A stretch of DNA of 64,000 bases from Oscillospiraceae bacterium (lineage in GTDB: Bacteria > Bacillota > Clostridia > Oscillospirales > Acutalibacteraceae): assembly GCA_015065785.1 (NCBI GenBank), contig SVPR01000006.1, positions 1 through 64,000 of the forward strand. Direction: 5' to 3'. Shown here in pieces: positions 48,465-55,402 of the stretch; within the stretch, counting starts at the first letter, position 1, and each line of letters opens with the position of its first letter. The position numbers and the translations under genes were made by a program. The notes under the pieces are model-generated. The model searched no databases. It was not told the DNA's origin and saw only the letters and a list, made by a program, of their open reading frames with translations.

Positions 48465-48551
48465 GCAGGGGTGGCGGAATTGGCAGACGCGTTAGATTCA
48501 GATTCTAATGGTAGCAATACCTTGTGGGTTCAAGTCCCATTCTCTGCACCA
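48465..48551 (+). tRNA. tRNA-Leu (anticodon CAG)
   Basis: Acceptor GCAGGGG pairs with TCTCTGC (two G-U). The anticodon stem TTAGA/TCTAA encloses loop TTCAGAT with anticodon CAG. A class II long variable arm (GGTAGCAATACC) and T arm (GTGGGTTCAAGTCCCAT) follow, and CCA is encoded. All features fit a leucine tRNA. Confidence 0.96.
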
Positions 48552-49411: not shown

Positions 49412-49495
49412 GCGAGAGTGGCGGAATCGGCAGACGCGCACGTTTGAGGGGCGTGTGGTAATCCCGTACGGGTTCAAGTCCCGTCTCTCGCACCA
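49412..49495 (+). tRNA. tRNA-Leu (anticodon GAG)
   Basis: Acceptor GCGAGAG pairs with CTCTCGC. The anticodon stem CACGT/GCGTG encloses TTGAGGG with anticodon GAG. A long variable arm and T arm (ACGGGTTCAAGTCCCGT) follow, and CCA is encoded. It borders the accessory region to the right. Confidence 0.96.
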
Positions 49496-50177: not shown

Positions 50178-50212
50178 GACAAAAGCCCGCACAATCTGTG
50201 CGAGCTTTTTTT
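50178..50212. terminator. Terminator between hypothetical gene and DUF262-HNH gene
   Basis: AAAGC and CGCACA pair with TGTGCG and GCTTT across one mismatch (11 bp; 50182-50208), followed by T residues on the plus strand and TTTTGTCTT on the minus. Confidence 0.78.
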
Positions 50213-51350
50213 ACATATCAGACTTTTCAAGATTATGGTCTCTGCAAAGCATTTGTCCGTTTTCCAAAGTAGTGTGTCCGCCTTTGCTCCATGGAATTTT
50301 ATGGTCCGCGTGCATATCCTCAAAATCCCATTTTATATCTTTACCCTCTGCCTTACACATTGGGCAAATTCCGTGTTGTCTTTCGTACAAAGTCCGTTTT
50401 TCATTATCGGTAAATGCACGAATTGATAACACTTTTTCTTTTGACTTTCCGCTTAACAGATATTCATATATACCTTTTTGCTTTGTTATGTCATCATCTT
50501 GTAAAAGTAAATTTATTTCTTTTTCCAATTCATTCGGATCATAAATATTATTTCCATATTCATTGTAAAGCACACCCCAATTTAAACCTTTCATAAGTTT
50601 CCCCCTGTATTTCGGGAAAGTTAACTCGACCCAATCAATAATTGTTTTGTAATATTGTTTCAATGGGGTTGCGTGTGTATCGTGTTGATGTTCTGCCATA
50701 TACTGCTCAATAGTCTTACTTTCTTTTGTAGATATCCAACTTAAAACAGTTTGCAAATAGTCTTGTCTGATTGTTGTACCGCTCATATATTTTTCGCCGA
50801 TTTTATAAGCAATACATTGATTTTTGCTAAAATACCTTTTTGCATCACTTAACCATTCGCCTGTATAAATAGCATTACGAAGCTCTTGGTCTGTTAGCTT
50901 CTCTCCGGCAATATTAATTATTTTAAACCAATCCAGTTTTTCTGTGTCTGTACCCTTACAAATATAAATCATCAATTTATAGTCAAGAACTTTATCGGTA
51001 ATTTCTTTTGATGTATGGGCATAATACGGAGTAGTTGGTGAAGCTGGATTTGCAAATATAGAATATCCATTATCCAACCAATCACAGATTGAGATTGTTC
51101 TCTGTTGACCATCGAGCATTTCGTATGTACCATCTTCATTTTCCGACCAGTACATTACATTTAGCGGAAACTCGTGGAGAATGGAGTTCATAACAGCAAC
51201 TTTCTTTTTATCGTCATAGACAAATTCACGTTGATATGCCGGTCTAACATTTAATTTACCACCATAAGCAACAACTTGTCCACTTTCTTCATCGTTATAA
51301 TATCCGTTAAAAACCTCTCTAACGGTTATTTCGTGTAATTGTATATCCAT
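50211..51350 (-). CDS. DUF262-HNH endonuclease (GmrSD-like N-terminal domain)
   Basis: The 379-residue protein joins a DUF262/ParB-like domain to a C-terminal HNH nuclease. The DUF262 part has LNVRPAYQREFVYDDKKKVAVMNSILHEFPLNVMYW and YEMLDGQQRTISICDWL; the DGQQR motif is the NTP-binding signature. The HNH part has CPMCKAEGKDIKWDFEDMHADHKIPWSKGGHTTLENGQMLCRDHNLEKSD, with CxxC and three His. Such proteins act in modified-DNA restriction and phage defence. The gene follows the methylase gene by 9 bp, suggesting it is the restriction partner (inference). Confidence 0.9.
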   Translation of the reverse strand: MDIQLHEITVREVFNGYYNDEESGQVVAYGGKLNVRPAYQREFVYDDKKKVAVMNSILHEFPLNVMYWSENEDGTYEMLDGQQRTISICDWLDNGYSIFANPASPTTPYYAHTSKEITDKVLDYKLMIYICKGTDTEKLDWFKIINIAGEKLTDQELRNAIYTGEWLSDAKRYFSKNQCIAYKIGEKYMSGTTIRQDYLQTVLSWISTKESKTIEQYMAEHQHDTHATPLKQYYKTIIDWVELTFPKYRGKLMKGLNWGVLYNEYGNNIYDPNELEKEINLLLQDDDITKQKGIYEYLLSGKSKEKVLSIRAFTDNEKRTLYERQHGICPMCKAEGKDIKWDFEDMHADHKIPWSKGGHTTLENGQMLCRDHNLEKSDM

Positions 51351-51359
51351 AATGAGAAC

Positions 51360-52478
51360 CTACCTTTTTTTAATTATTATTCGTGCATAAGGAACAGTAA
51401 CAACATCATCTATCATCATATATAAATCCCCGTCAACTGCACCCCGTTTTTGAATTTCTTTACGATATTTTTTATGTTCGGGTTTATACGGTTGCACACC
51501 GATTTCAATTCCCGAATTAGAAATACCAAGACCAACGATTTCAAATTGGTCGGGATTATACTTATCAAGGAAAGTAATAGGAACACCCATTTCTCCGTCG
51601 TAATCTTCGGGAATATCGGCAGTTTTATCAACATTGATTGCATTGTAATTTTCGTATTTTGGATATTCTTCGGGGTTATATTTTTTATACAAATCAAGGT
51701 CGGTGTGTCTTTCAATATAGTCCATATTAGTAAACCACCGAACACCCTTAACCCGTATGTATTTTCGCCCTTGTTCATCAATGCGATAACCAGAAGCATT
51801 TAAGGGGTAATCATCAGGAACTCTAAATTCTCTATCTCCACTATGTATGGAATATCCCATCCACAACTTATTATCTTTAATTAGTGCAAAAATTTCTTTA
51901 TAAGTTATTGCATTAACATTACCGATAATAATAAACTGCTTGTCATATTCAACTAATTGAGCAACAAATTCACGGAACAGAGAAAAGGGTGGATTAGTAA
52001 CAACAATATCTGCTTGTTTCAAAACATCAATACATTCGGGGGAACGAAAATCCCCGTCCCCATCCAAGAGCGAAAGAGAGTTTTTATTATTCTTCAATAG
52101 ATATTCAACATCTGTCAAATCAACTGCACCATCCCCGTTGACATCTACAATTTCGGTTATCTCAATTCTATAAGGTCTTTTCTCATTTTGGATAACAGAA
52201 ACGGTTTCTTTGTCCCCAAACTCATTTAACTGTGTATATATTATTGGCGAACCTTTATAGCAAGTAGCAACCAACTTTTTAAGACCTAAAAAGTTAAAGT
52301 TCATAGCAAAGTATTTGAAAAAGTTGCTTTCATACGGGTCATCGCAATTACAGAAAACCACTTTATCCTTAAAGTGGTTTCTATACCTTTTCATTTCCAA
52401 TTCTATATCAGCAAGTTGAGTATAAAACTCGTCTTTCTTTGCTTTGTTTGCTTTTCTTAAATCGCTATTTCCTGCCAT
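51360..52478 (-). CDS. EcoRI-type adenine-specific DNA methyltransferase A
   Basis: Probable N6-adenine methylase. The 372 residues include FYTQLADIELEMKRY, FCNCDDPYESNFFKYFAMNFN (SAM-binding region) and catalytic motif IV as VVTNPPFSLFREFVAQL. An unusual DVNGDGAVDLTDVEYLL segment lies just before motif IV and looks like a calcium-binding EF-hand/dockerin loop. It is a clear paralog of the upstream methylase (52504) with a different recognition-side region. Second gene of a three-gene minus-strand operon with the DUF262-HNH nuclease. Confidence 0.92.
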   Translation of the reverse strand: MAGNSDLRKANKAKKDEFYTQLADIELEMKRYRNHFKDKVVFCNCDDPYESNFFKYFAMNFNFLGLKKLVATCYKGSPIIYTQLNEFGDKETVSVIQNEKRPYRIEITEIVDVNGDGAVDLTDVEYLLKNNKNSLSLLDGDGDFRSPECIDVLKQADIVVTNPPFSLFREFVAQLVEYDKQFIIIGNVNAITYKEIFALIKDNKLWMGYSIHSGDREFRVPDDYPLNASGYRIDEQGRKYIRVKGVRWFTNMDYIERHTDLDLYKKYNPEEYPKYENYNAINVDKTADIPEDYDGEMGVPITFLDKYNPDQFEIVGLGISNSGIEIGVQPYKPEHKKYRKEIQKRGAVDGDLYMMIDDVVTVPYARIIIKKR

Positions 52479-52503
52479 AAGAAAACTCCTAAATTATATT
52501 CAA

Positions 52504-53577
52504 TTATTTCTTTTTAATCACTATTCTAAAATAGGTTGGTACACCGTTTATATTGCAAGTATGAGAGTGAACCGAACGAACATACTCGTTTGTGTTTTGG
52601 GTATCTAAAAGTGCATATCTATTAAGAGCATCAACAATTTCAAATTGGTCAGGGTTATACTTATCAAGAAAAGTAATAGGCACACCCATTTCTCCGTTAT
52701 AATCTTCGGGAATATCGGCGGTTTTATTTACATTGATAGCGTTAAAATTATCATACTTTGGGAACTCGTCGGAGGTGTATTTTTTATATAACTCCAATTC
52801 TTCGTGTCGCTTTTTATGGTCTAAATTTGTGAACCAACAAATATTTCCTAAACTTCTCCATTTTTGTCCGTTATCATCAATCCAAAAGCGAGTTTCTCTT
52901 TCTTCGTAATATTCGGGAACAGTAAATGCCATATCACCACAACGAAAACCCTGCCACATTTTATTATCTTTGAGCAACGGAAAAATTTCCTTATAGGTTA
53001 TCGCATTTTGACTTCCTATTACAAGAAACTTTTTATCATATTCCATAAGTTGTGCGATATACTCACGAAACAGAGAAAATGGTGGGTTTGTAACAACAAT
53101 ATCCGCTTGTTTCAAAATCTCAACACATTCGGGAGAACGAAAATCCCCGTCCCCATCCAAGAGTGAAAGGGAGTTTTTATTATTCTTCAATAGATATTCA
53201 ACATCTGTCAAATCAACTGCACCGTCCCCGTTGACATCTATAATTTCGGTTATCTCAATTTTATATGGGTGCTTTTTTGGGAGTTCTTCCTCACTCGGTA
53301 ATATTTCAAACAGAGACAACATATCAAGTTGTTGTCCAGCAACGGGAGAACCCGTATAGCAAGTGGCAATTAACTTTTTAAGACCTAAATAATTAAAGTT
53401 CATTGCAAAGTATTTGAAAAAGTTGCTTTCGTAAGGGTCATCACAATTACAAAATACGGTTTTACCCATAAAATGCTTTCTGTAATGTTTTAATTCTAAT
53501 TCTATATCAGCAAGTTGAGTATAAAACTCATCATTCTTTGCCTTATCTGCTTTTCTCAAAGATGTATTTCCTGCCAT
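52504..53577 (-). CDS. EcoRI-type adenine-specific DNA methyltransferase B
   Basis: The 357-residue paralog of the downstream methylase shares TSLRKADKAKNDEFYTQLADIELELKHY, FCNCDDPYESNFFKYFAMNFN, the DVNGDGAVDLTDVEYLL loop and VVTNPPFSLFREYIAQL. Divergence concentrates at ~85-105, ~210-250 and the C-terminus, probable target recognition parts. Two methylases beside one nuclease suggest protection of both strands of an asymmetric site, or recent duplication. It is the first gene after the promoter with the 38-bp palindrome. Confidence 0.92.
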   Translation of the reverse strand: MAGNTSLRKADKAKNDEFYTQLADIELELKHYRKHFMGKTVFCNCDDPYESNFFKYFAMNFNYLGLKKLIATCYTGSPVAGQQLDMLSLFEILPSEEELPKKHPYKIEITEIIDVNGDGAVDLTDVEYLLKNNKNSLSLLDGDGDFRSPECVEILKQADIVVTNPPFSLFREYIAQLMEYDKKFLVIGSQNAITYKEIFPLLKDNKMWQGFRCGDMAFTVPEYYEERETRFWIDDNGQKWRSLGNICWFTNLDHKKRHEELELYKKYTSDEFPKYDNFNAINVNKTADIPEDYNGEMGVPITFLDKYNPDQFEIVDALNRYALLDTQNTNEYVRSVHSHTCNINGVPTYFRIVIKKK

Positions 53578-53722: not shown

Positions 53723-53932
53723 ATGGTTAAATTAACGCTTGACAAAGCTTTAGAAAAAAGAAATATAAAACGCTATGGATTAGCAAAGATAACAGGAATA
53801 CAGTATCAAATTATAGATAACTATTACAAAAACAATGTAACCCGTTATGATAGTTATGTTTTAGACCGTATATGTTCAGCTTTAGAATGTGAAATTTCAG
53901 ATATAATTGAATATACAAATGAAGAAAAATAA
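53723..53932 (+). CDS. XRE-type control protein of the methylase locus (C-protein-like)
   Basis: A 69-residue Cro/CI-type regulator: LTLDKALEKRNIKRYGLAKITGIQYQIIDNYYKNNVTRYDSYVLDRICSALECEISDIIEYT. GGTGAT lies 6 bp before the ATG. It is divergent from the methylase-nuclease operon, and palindromes cover both promoters. Restriction-modification systems often have such controller (C) proteins to time methylase before nuclease. The role here is inferred from position and operators. A strong terminator follows immediately. Confidence 0.85.
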   Translation: MVKLTLDKALEKRNIKRYGLAKITGIQYQIIDNYYKNNVTRYDSYVLDRICSALECEISDIIEYTNEEK

Positions 53933-54051: not shown

Positions 54052-54080
54052 TTGAAAATATTACTTATATGTAATATTAT
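54052..54080 (+). promoter_or_regulatory. TAC operon promoter with palindromic operator
   Basis: TTGAAA (54052-54057), 17-bp spacer, TATTAT (54075-54080). The palindrome AATATTAC-TTATAT-GTAATATT (54057-54078, 8-bp perfect arms) spans the spacer and -10 box. The XRE antitoxin of this operon is the expected repressor. Confidence 0.75.
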
Positions 54081-54123
54081 TGTGTTGATATATGTATAAC
54101 TTTTGTAGAAAGGGGGCATACTA

Positions 54124-54489
54124 TTGGAAGTAGTTCATCTTGATGATTTTAACAGAATAAAGTGTTTAGATATTTTTGAAGACGAGTTAAATAAATTATT
54201 TTCTAAAAGCATACCTGAAAAAAAGAAATATTTGAAATTTTTATTTGCTGAATTGCATAAAATTGATAACAGAAGAGAAACAATACAACGAGAAGAACCT
54301 ATTAACTACAAAGATATTACTTTATATTCTATAAGAAAAAGATCACAGAAAAATACTAGAGTATTATATTTTTATATGAAAGACGATAACATCATTTTAT
54401 TAACTGCATTTGATGAAAAAAATAAATCAGACTATGATAATGCTAACGAGAGAGCGTATAGAAGATTAAAAAATTTAGAATTAATTTGA
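54124..54489 (+). CDS. HigB/RelE-superfamily toxin of a TAC module
   Basis: Likely ribosome-dependent mRNA interferase. The 121-residue protein has the RelE/HigB (Gp49-like) plan: helices, then SIRKRSQKNTRVLYFYMKDDNIILLTAFDEKNKSDYDNANERAYRRLKNL, where the strand-strand-helix with LLTAF and the C-terminal basic helix are typical. It starts at TTG 54124 after a strong AAAGGGGG; a rare start may lower toxin output. The order toxin, XRE antitoxin, SecB-like chaperone matches TAC systems. Confidence 0.82.
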   Translation: MEVVHLDDFNRIKCLDIFEDELNKLFSKSIPEKKKYLKFLFAELHKIDNRRETIQREEPINYKDITLYSIRKRSQKNTRVLYFYMKDDNIILLTAFDEKNKSDYDNANERAYRRLKNLELI

Positions 54490-54526
54490 TAGTAATTTAA
54501 ATAAAAATATATAGGAGGAAAACAAA

Positions 54527-54901
54527 ATGAAAGGAAAAAGTTTATTCAATTGTTTAAGCGAAACAGAAAAAAAACAAGGTAAATTACGAGGAATGATTTC
54601 TGCAGCTATTGAAAACAAACGCTATGAATTAGGAATGACCCAAAAACAATTTGCAGAATACCTCGGAATTACTCAAGGTATGGTTTCAAAATTAGAAAGT
54701 TCAGAAAACAATATTAGTGTTGATAAACTAATAGAATTATTTGAAGATTTGGATATTAAGTACAAGATAGAAATAGATGAAAAAGTTTGTGTTAATAATT
54801 CATCCACTAAAGTAAAAGGTATTGAGTACTTCTCATCTGGAGTTTTTATTTTTGATAACTCTTATTGTCAACAGAATGAAATACAATTGCGAATCGCATA
54901 A
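54527..54901 (+). CDS. HigA-like XRE antitoxin with C-terminal extension
   Basis: The 124-residue protein holds an HTH at ~18-78 (GKLRGMISAAIENKRYELGMTQKQFAEYLGITQGMVSKLESSENNISVDKLIELFEDL). A ~45-residue tail follows, rich in aromatic and aliphatic residues (VKGIEYFSSGVFIFDNSYCQQNEIQLRI). In M. tuberculosis TAC, a C-terminal chaperone-addiction (ChAD) segment of the antitoxin needs the SecB-like partner for stability; the tail here sits in the same place. AGGAGG precedes the ATG. It starts 37 bp after the toxin stop. Confidence 0.85.
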   Translation: MKGKSLFNCLSETEKKQGKLRGMISAAIENKRYELGMTQKQFAEYLGITQGMVSKLESSENNISVDKLIELFEDLDIKYKIEIDEKVCVNNSSTKVKGIEYFSSGVFIFDNSYCQQNEIQLRIA

Positions 54902-54914
54902 GAAAGGACATACT

Positions 54915-55364
54915 ATGGAAACCAAAAAATTTGAACCAGCTTTTCAAATGATTGCAAATACAATTGCCAAAATTAATGTTGTAAACACAATAAATAATAT
55001 TTCAAACACACAAGATTTACATAGAAGTTTTTCTATAAATGTAAAAGATTTATATATTGAAGAACACGAAGAGTATAAATCAGCGGGATTAGATGTAGAA
55101 ATAATTACATTAATTGAAGAAAAAAATACAGAAAACCCCAAAAAATTTGAAATGCAATTGATAATAACGGGTATATTTAAAGATTTGGCAGATACCCCCA
55201 ATGATGAGTTTGAAGAAAAACTTAAACTTAATGGTGTCGCTGCTTTGTATTCAATTGCCAGAGGTTGTGTAACTAACATATCTTCTCAAACTTTAGCTGA
55301 AGGTAAGGTTGTTCTTCCTTTAGTAAATTTTATTGAAGCCAAGAAGGATTTAGAAACCGAATAA
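54915..55364 (+). CDS. SecB-like chaperone of a TAC module
   Basis: SecB-like proteins hold unfolded chains; in TAC systems they fold or protect the antitoxin. The 149-residue product has a SecB-type beta sheet (LHRSFSINVKDLYIEEHEEYKSAGLDVEIITLIEE..., KKFEMQLIITGIFKDL) and ends with GVAALYSIARGCVTNISSQTL then VVLPLVNFIEAKK, matching the SecB pattern of a YxxAR-like helix then LPPVNF. ATG 54915 follows AGAAAGGACAT, 13 bp after the antitoxin. Firmicutes usually lack SecB, which supports a dedicated antitoxin role. Confidence 0.82.
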   Translation: METKKFEPAFQMIANTIAKINVVNTINNISNTQDLHRSFSINVKDLYIEEHEEYKSAGLDVEIITLIEEKNTENPKKFEMQLIITGIFKDLADTPNDEFEEKLKLNGVAALYSIARGCVTNISSQTLAEGKVVLPLVNFIEAKKDLETE

Positions 55365-55374
55365 AATTTCTCCC

Positions 55375-55402
55375 CCCCACTCATCACGAGTGGGGCTTTT
55401 TT
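55375..55402 (+). terminator. Terminator of the TAC operon
   Basis: CCCCACTC-ATCAC-GAGTGGGG (8 bp) then C and six T, directly after the SecB-like gene. Confidence 0.9.

Follow-up and report, generated by a model that had tools for sequence, protein, structure and literature searches.

A probable HigBAC-type toxin-antitoxin-chaperone operon with a glutamate-type toxin in a clostridial genome

Introduction

Toxin-antitoxin-chaperone (TAC) systems have only recently come to be seen as a class of phage sensors, and few of its members have been characterised. Positions 54052 to 55402 of a 64,000-nucleotide stretch of an Oscillospiraceae genome (GenBank assembly GCA_015065785.1, contig SVPR01000006.1, positions 1 to 64,000), hereafter referred to as the window, hold a toxin gene, an antitoxin gene and a gene for a SecB-like protein. 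This raises the question whether the three genes form one TAC system, or a two-gene pair that happens to adjoin a SecB gene. Judging from sequence comparisons and predicted structures, we consider it very probable that they constitute a TAC operon of the HigBAC type. The most surprising part of this TAC branch is the replacement of a lysine by a glutamate in its toxins.

The locus and its third protein

The first-pass annotation of this locus described a toxin gene, an XRE antitoxin gene and a third gene on one strand, with a palindrome-bearing promoter-like site and a single terminator. All of these elements are present, and the toxin has the proposed TTG start:

54052..54080, plus strand: promoter-like site TTGAAA-17-TATTAT, 10 of 12 consensus bases
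54057..54078, strand not applicable: operator-like 8+8 palindrome AATATTAC-TTATAT-GTAATATT (6-base gap), over the spacer and the -10 box
54107..54116, plus strand: toxin ribosome-binding site AGAAAGGGGG, seven bases before the TTG start
54124..54489, plus strand: toxin, Gp49/HigB type of the RelE superfamily, 121 amino acids, TTG start, Glu98 at the position of the HigB catalytic lysine
54527..54901, plus strand: antitoxin, XRE/helix-turn-helix, HigA-like, 124 amino acids, ATG start, HTH_3 E-value 2.3e-11
54779..54898, plus strand: C-terminal extension of the antitoxin (residues 85-124), ending in -RIA, candidate ChAD
54915..55364, plus strand: SecB-like chaperone, 149 amino acids, ATG start, AGAAAGGA upstream, assigned by profile-profile and fold comparison
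55375..55395, plus strand: intrinsic terminator, 8-bp stem followed by CTTTTTT

The toxin, antitoxin and SecB-like genes thus stand in an operon-like row. Only 13 bases separate the antitoxin stop from the start of the third gene, and the sole terminator-like site on the plus strand between 53900 and 55500 lies downstream of that gene. An in-frame TAG is located at 54106-54108, upstream of the toxin start. Promoter-like sites as such are not enriched in the region (10 found versus 9.8 expected from shuffles). The order toxin-antitoxin-SecB is maintained in relatives, including distantly related loci.

Profile-profile and fold comparison were required to link the third protein to SecB, because sequence searches of Pfam and the PDB gave no usable match. 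The profile of this protein matched a SecB alignment with a probability of 97.8%, and its predicted structure has, on structural comparison, the SecB fold, on which the first-pass annotation had made its proposal depend. A phmmer search of the PDB returned just one chance-like match (3rfy, 0.092), the profile of the protein found no match in the PDB, and a tblastn search of phages and plasmids gave none either. When the close alignment was compared by hhalign with E. coli SecB alone, the value was 16.5%. Pfam SecB (PF02556) matched two of the seven members of the alignment of the window chaperone. The statement that SecB is usually absent from Firmicutes was roughly right: of 291 genomes belonging to the class, 10 had a Pfam SecB match at E≤0.001, 8 of them above the cut-off, and at that threshold none was detected in the window's own genome, which is 84% complete. 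The low frequency of SecB in Firmicutes is already reported in PMC4257090.

Additional clostridial SecB-like genes (L030, L036, L037 and L040) follow gene sets of other kinds, a number of whose products end in small or aromatic residues (for example -RYAA in L037), and these loci are possible TACs with other toxins.

The antitoxin tail accompanies the chaperone gene

The antitoxin was compared in a set of 45 Gp49/XRE pairs, of which 20 are accompanied by a SecB-like gene (TACs) and 25 are not; 24 of the latter are two-gene pairs from Clostridia and viral contigs. This set excludes toxin matches beside which no antitoxin was recognised (L049, L061, L064, L065, L069, L076, L079 and L081), repeats whose antitoxins agree in their final 45 residues, and TAC-like loci in which the profile did not match the toxin (for example L008 and L030); a slightly different repeat filter yields 46 pairs instead of 45. 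L007, which has a short toxin frame, entered the tail and operator counts but neither the count of residue 98 nor the tree. No sequence is available past the antitoxin of L107, and just 243 bases past that of L048, so that a SecB gene could go unseen there.

A long antitoxin tail was found in all 20 TACs and in only one of the 25 chaperone-less pairs (L047). The number of residues following the recognition-helix Glu was 55-93 in the TACs, 26-36 in 24 of the other pairs and 75 in L047 (Mann-Whitney p-value of 9e-8 for rows that are not independent). These findings bear out the description of the window antitoxin as an XRE protein with an extra C-terminal tail, since residues 85-124 have no counterpart in 24 of the 25 chaperone-less antitoxins. 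They also answer, with the exception of L047, the objection raised in advance by the first-pass annotation, that the tail might occur in homologs without the chaperone gene as well.

All 20 TAC antitoxins, as against 5 of the 25 others, end in two small or non-polar residues, by a definition chosen post hoc; a terminal Ala alone did not differ clearly between the two groups (6/13 versus 5/23, p-value of 0.15). Such ends fit published ends recognised by ClpXP. CmdA, the antitoxin of E. coli CmdTAC, ends in LAA, as do other TAC antitoxins (PMC11618068), and ClpX is present in the window's own genome. Compared with its counterpart in L084, the window antitoxin shares 43 of 80 residues in the body and only 6 of 30 in the tail, a divergence that matches the variability of ChAD sequences reported in PMC5105189.

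A recurrent operator-like palindrome

The exact 8+8 palindrome occurs once in the window (54057-54078). This stretch is rich in A+T, and 39 of its 200 shuffles contained an equally good repeat, so that in one sequence it could be due to chance, and we retain it as evidence because it recurs in relatives. A site near TATTACTTATAAGTAATA with a score of at least 14/18 was present upstream of 18 of the 20 TAC toxins and of 3 of the 25 others, the consensus having been derived from some of the TACs counted, among which L023 and L024 are near copies. In 17 of 20 TACs the site reached a shuffle p-value of at most 0.005. The window palindrome agrees with the site of its TAC relatives at 17 of 18 positions, and no other place in the window scores above 15/18. 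The two TACs without the site are L084 (12/18) and L066 (11/18), and a palindrome resembling it (14/18) precedes the toxins of two chaperone-less pairs, L060 and L062. In 13 of 18 cases the operator starts 34-48 bases before the toxin frame; the distance is 65 in the window and 58 in L007. In L002, L003 and L088 it starts seven bases inside the called toxin frame, which suggests a later start codon there.

Points that speak against a TAC

Several observations weigh against assigning the window locus to the TACs. The SecB-like protein has no match to PF02556 at E≤1, and its match to the PADLOC model PD-T4-9_C (7.7e-5) is weak support. The antitoxin ends in -RIA rather than in the LAA of CmdA. 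In the toxin, Glu98 stands where K92 of S. pneumoniae HigB or K95 of the M. tuberculosis toxin would be expected, a correspondence drawn from motif and spacing and not from an alignment to those two sequences; the catalytic lysine is typical of the family rather than a strict criterion for membership in PF05973. L047 has a tailed antitoxin and no detected SecB-like gene. Lastly, the 20 TACs are largely one related group, so that their shared features are not independent events and the p-values overstate the association of tail and chaperone. In the toxin tree two label changes suffice: the first separates the remainder of the lysine clade from the glutamate clade plus L066, and the second falls at L047. 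Among the compared pairs, the link between tail and chaperone may therefore reflect little beyond one event and one loss.

L047 itself (1459-2511, G752:C13) encodes a glutamate-type HigB and the long-tailed antitoxin, the end of which is overlapped by a gene for 90 amino acids. A role for this gene as an alternative chaperone is not supported: neither Pfam nor PHROG matched it at E≤1, and a scan of viral contigs revealed no relative. A search of the L047 genome with the chaperone profile gave no match at E≤10, which by itself is weak evidence of absence. The TAC of L066 (688-1827, minus strand) stands at the base of the lysine clade; its Gp49 toxin is of the lysine type, and its SecB is recognised by Pfam (2.9e-10). 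Tail and chaperone may be associated here in a second or an intermediate form; a second origin is not forced by the toxin tree.

A model for the operon

By analogy with the published TACs of M. tuberculosis and of E. coli (CmdTAC and HigBAC), on which the steps that involve chaperone, tail and phage are modelled, the window TAC would combine a chaperone-dependent antitoxin, a toxic partner and a role in phage defence. The antitoxin, alone or with the toxin, would bind the palindrome and repress the operon. Its presumably unfolded tail, with a small or non-polar, degron-like end, would without help lead to aggregation of the antitoxin or its degradation by ClpXP, whereas binding of the tail by a SecB-like tetramer would protect the antitoxin, which in turn would hold the toxin. 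A phage protein that occupies the chaperone might then free the tail, upon which the antitoxin would be lost, the toxin would block translation and the infection would be aborted.

The glutamate-type toxin

The toxin matches the Gp49/HigB profile PF05973 with 30.2 bits (cut-off 23.9) and is predicted to adopt a RelE-superfamily fold, in keeping with its initial description as HigB/RelE-like. The position of the HigB catalytic lysine is taken by glutamate in 18 of the 19 readable TAC toxins and in L047, as opposed to lysine in 24 of the 25 non-TAC pairs. All 19 glutamate-type rows (18 TACs and L047) also have Asp-Tyr, Asp103-Tyr104 in the window, in place of a K-T-P-like motif. Together with the report that K95A abolished toxicity in the M. 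tuberculosis TAC (PMC9098466), these changes speak for the view that the glutamate-type toxin does not act as a ribosome-dependent mRNase, either because its target has changed or because it is catalytically dead and acts as a co-repressor only. We regard this as rather unlikely, and a dead toxin in particular would hardly keep an antidote and its own chaperone across many lineages.

A tentative proposal is that Clostridia and their prophages harbour a chaperone-guarded clade of HigB toxins, with an operator and a dedicated SecB of its own, in which the conserved glutamate and the new Asp-Tyr motif might confer a chemistry or target different from those of characterised HigB/RelE toxins. The toxin of a relative matched a plasmid locus (H1), which was rejected as a TAC since it is a lysine-type pair with a short antitoxin and a third protein that is not SecB-like; the same toxin had no match in a search of phages.

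Genomic setting

As the first-pass annotation had indicated, the TAC genes have a restriction-like neighbour, whose nuclease and methyltransferase genes lie upstream on the opposite strand:

50211-53577, minus strand: GmrSD_N/HNH nuclease and two tandem EcoRI-type adenine methyltransferases (PF13651, both about E 1e-151), restriction-modification-like with two methylases
53723-53932, plus strand: small HTH_26 regulator

The nuclease matches a PADLOC type II restriction model (E-value of 7e-127). Two tRNA-Leu genes (48465-48551 and 49412-49495, plus strand) upstream of this stretch are a possible integration site. Downstream of the TAC there are a DUF5412 gene and a gene that we take to be that of a 16S rRNA methyltransferase (RsmE-like). 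This RsmE-like gene was found in 14 of 22 genomes of the genus, including the window's own. At 12 other RsmE-like loci (L114-L125) the preceding genes differ, and by eye no such operon was seen within 1.5 kb (0.6 kb for L123); L126 was not included, being truncated at a contig start. The chaperone was detected in 3 of the 198 genomes searched (the window's own, G022 and G111) and in no further genome of the genus in that set. Its rarity and the differing genes before the RsmE-like gene indicate that the window TAC is an accessory locus that was probably acquired. In L023 (4222-7091, minus strand), a second genome, a TAC is by eye followed by a DUF262-like gene and an apparent cytosine methyltransferase gene, a defence-like setting.

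The TAC might serve mainly to retain a mobile element or island by addiction, with no sensing of phages. This would suit the low G+C content of the three genes (23-29% versus 36% in the window) and the adjacency, by eye, of integrase-like genes to the relatives L028 and L029 in viral contigs. Ten distinct TAC modules were found on viral or prophage contigs of IMG/VR. However, the window copy adjoins restriction-modification-like genes, no integrase was noticed among its neighbours, and two tested E. coli TACs, CmdTAC and MqsRAC, are reported to defend against phages (PMC9519451, PMC11618068), which makes a pure retention function doubtful. An ordinary higBA pair beside an unrelated, solitary SecB for protein export, for which possible precedents exist in SecB-like genes of the same family without an adjacent pair (L017-L022; weak profile matches, neighbours by eye), is highly improbable given the preserved gene order, the distribution of the tail, the short intergenic gap and the position of the only terminator-like site on this strand after the third gene.

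Comparison with known systems

TACs outside Proteobacteria and in Gram-positive bacteria have been published (PMC4257090; PMC11618068). The setting is therefore less novel than the first-pass annotation implied. The 2014 survey describes TACs with diverse toxins and 52 of 688 SecB sequences as toxin-antitoxin-associated (PMC4257090), and phage defence by TACs is reported in PMC9519451, PMC11618068 and the HigBAC work summarised in PMC11980606. The window locus is thus no new kind of system; it is placed as a divergent branch of HigBAC-type TACs in gut Clostridia. Among the titles listed in literature searches on TACs, SecB and HigBAC, none concerns a glutamate-type HigB or this operator. The missed Pfam match of the window chaperone represents one route by which such systems elude annotation. 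The branch supplies about 20 divergent modules from Clostridia and viral contigs plus two-gene controls from related genomes. With these it can be tested directly whether tail and chaperone form a single exchangeable unit in evolution, and how a RelE-type toxin acts when the usual basic catalytic residue is missing.

Two-gene Gp49/HigB-XRE pairs (24 of the 25 non-TAC pairs) have the toxin superfamily, helix-turn-helix antitoxin and gene order of the window, but their antitoxin has no tail, the lysine is retained and no SecB-like gene was seen. CmdTAC (PD-T4-9) of E. coli ECOR22 resembles the window locus in its SecB-like chaperone and an antitoxin with a degron-like end, whereas its toxin CmdT is an ADP-ribosyltransferase and the Gp49/HigB-type toxin of the window has no PADLOC match. 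Candidate CmdTAC relatives were noticed in the clostridial three-gene loci L010 and L032, where a SecB-like gene accompanies those for an ADP-ribosyltransferase-like toxin (by eye) and for a small protein with -AA at its C-terminus. The M. tuberculosis HigBA1-SecB TAC (Rv1955-Rv1957) belongs to a different phylum; compared with it, the window tail has Phe/Tyr and no Trp, the Lys95 position is Glu, and the chaperones share 11-13% identity in a structural alignment. The three-part plan is also that of HigBAC of E. coli C496 (Mets et al. 2024), to which the window locus is likened by the description in PMC11980606, where the toxin is reported to be set free once the lambda tail protein has taken the place of the antitoxin on the chaperone.
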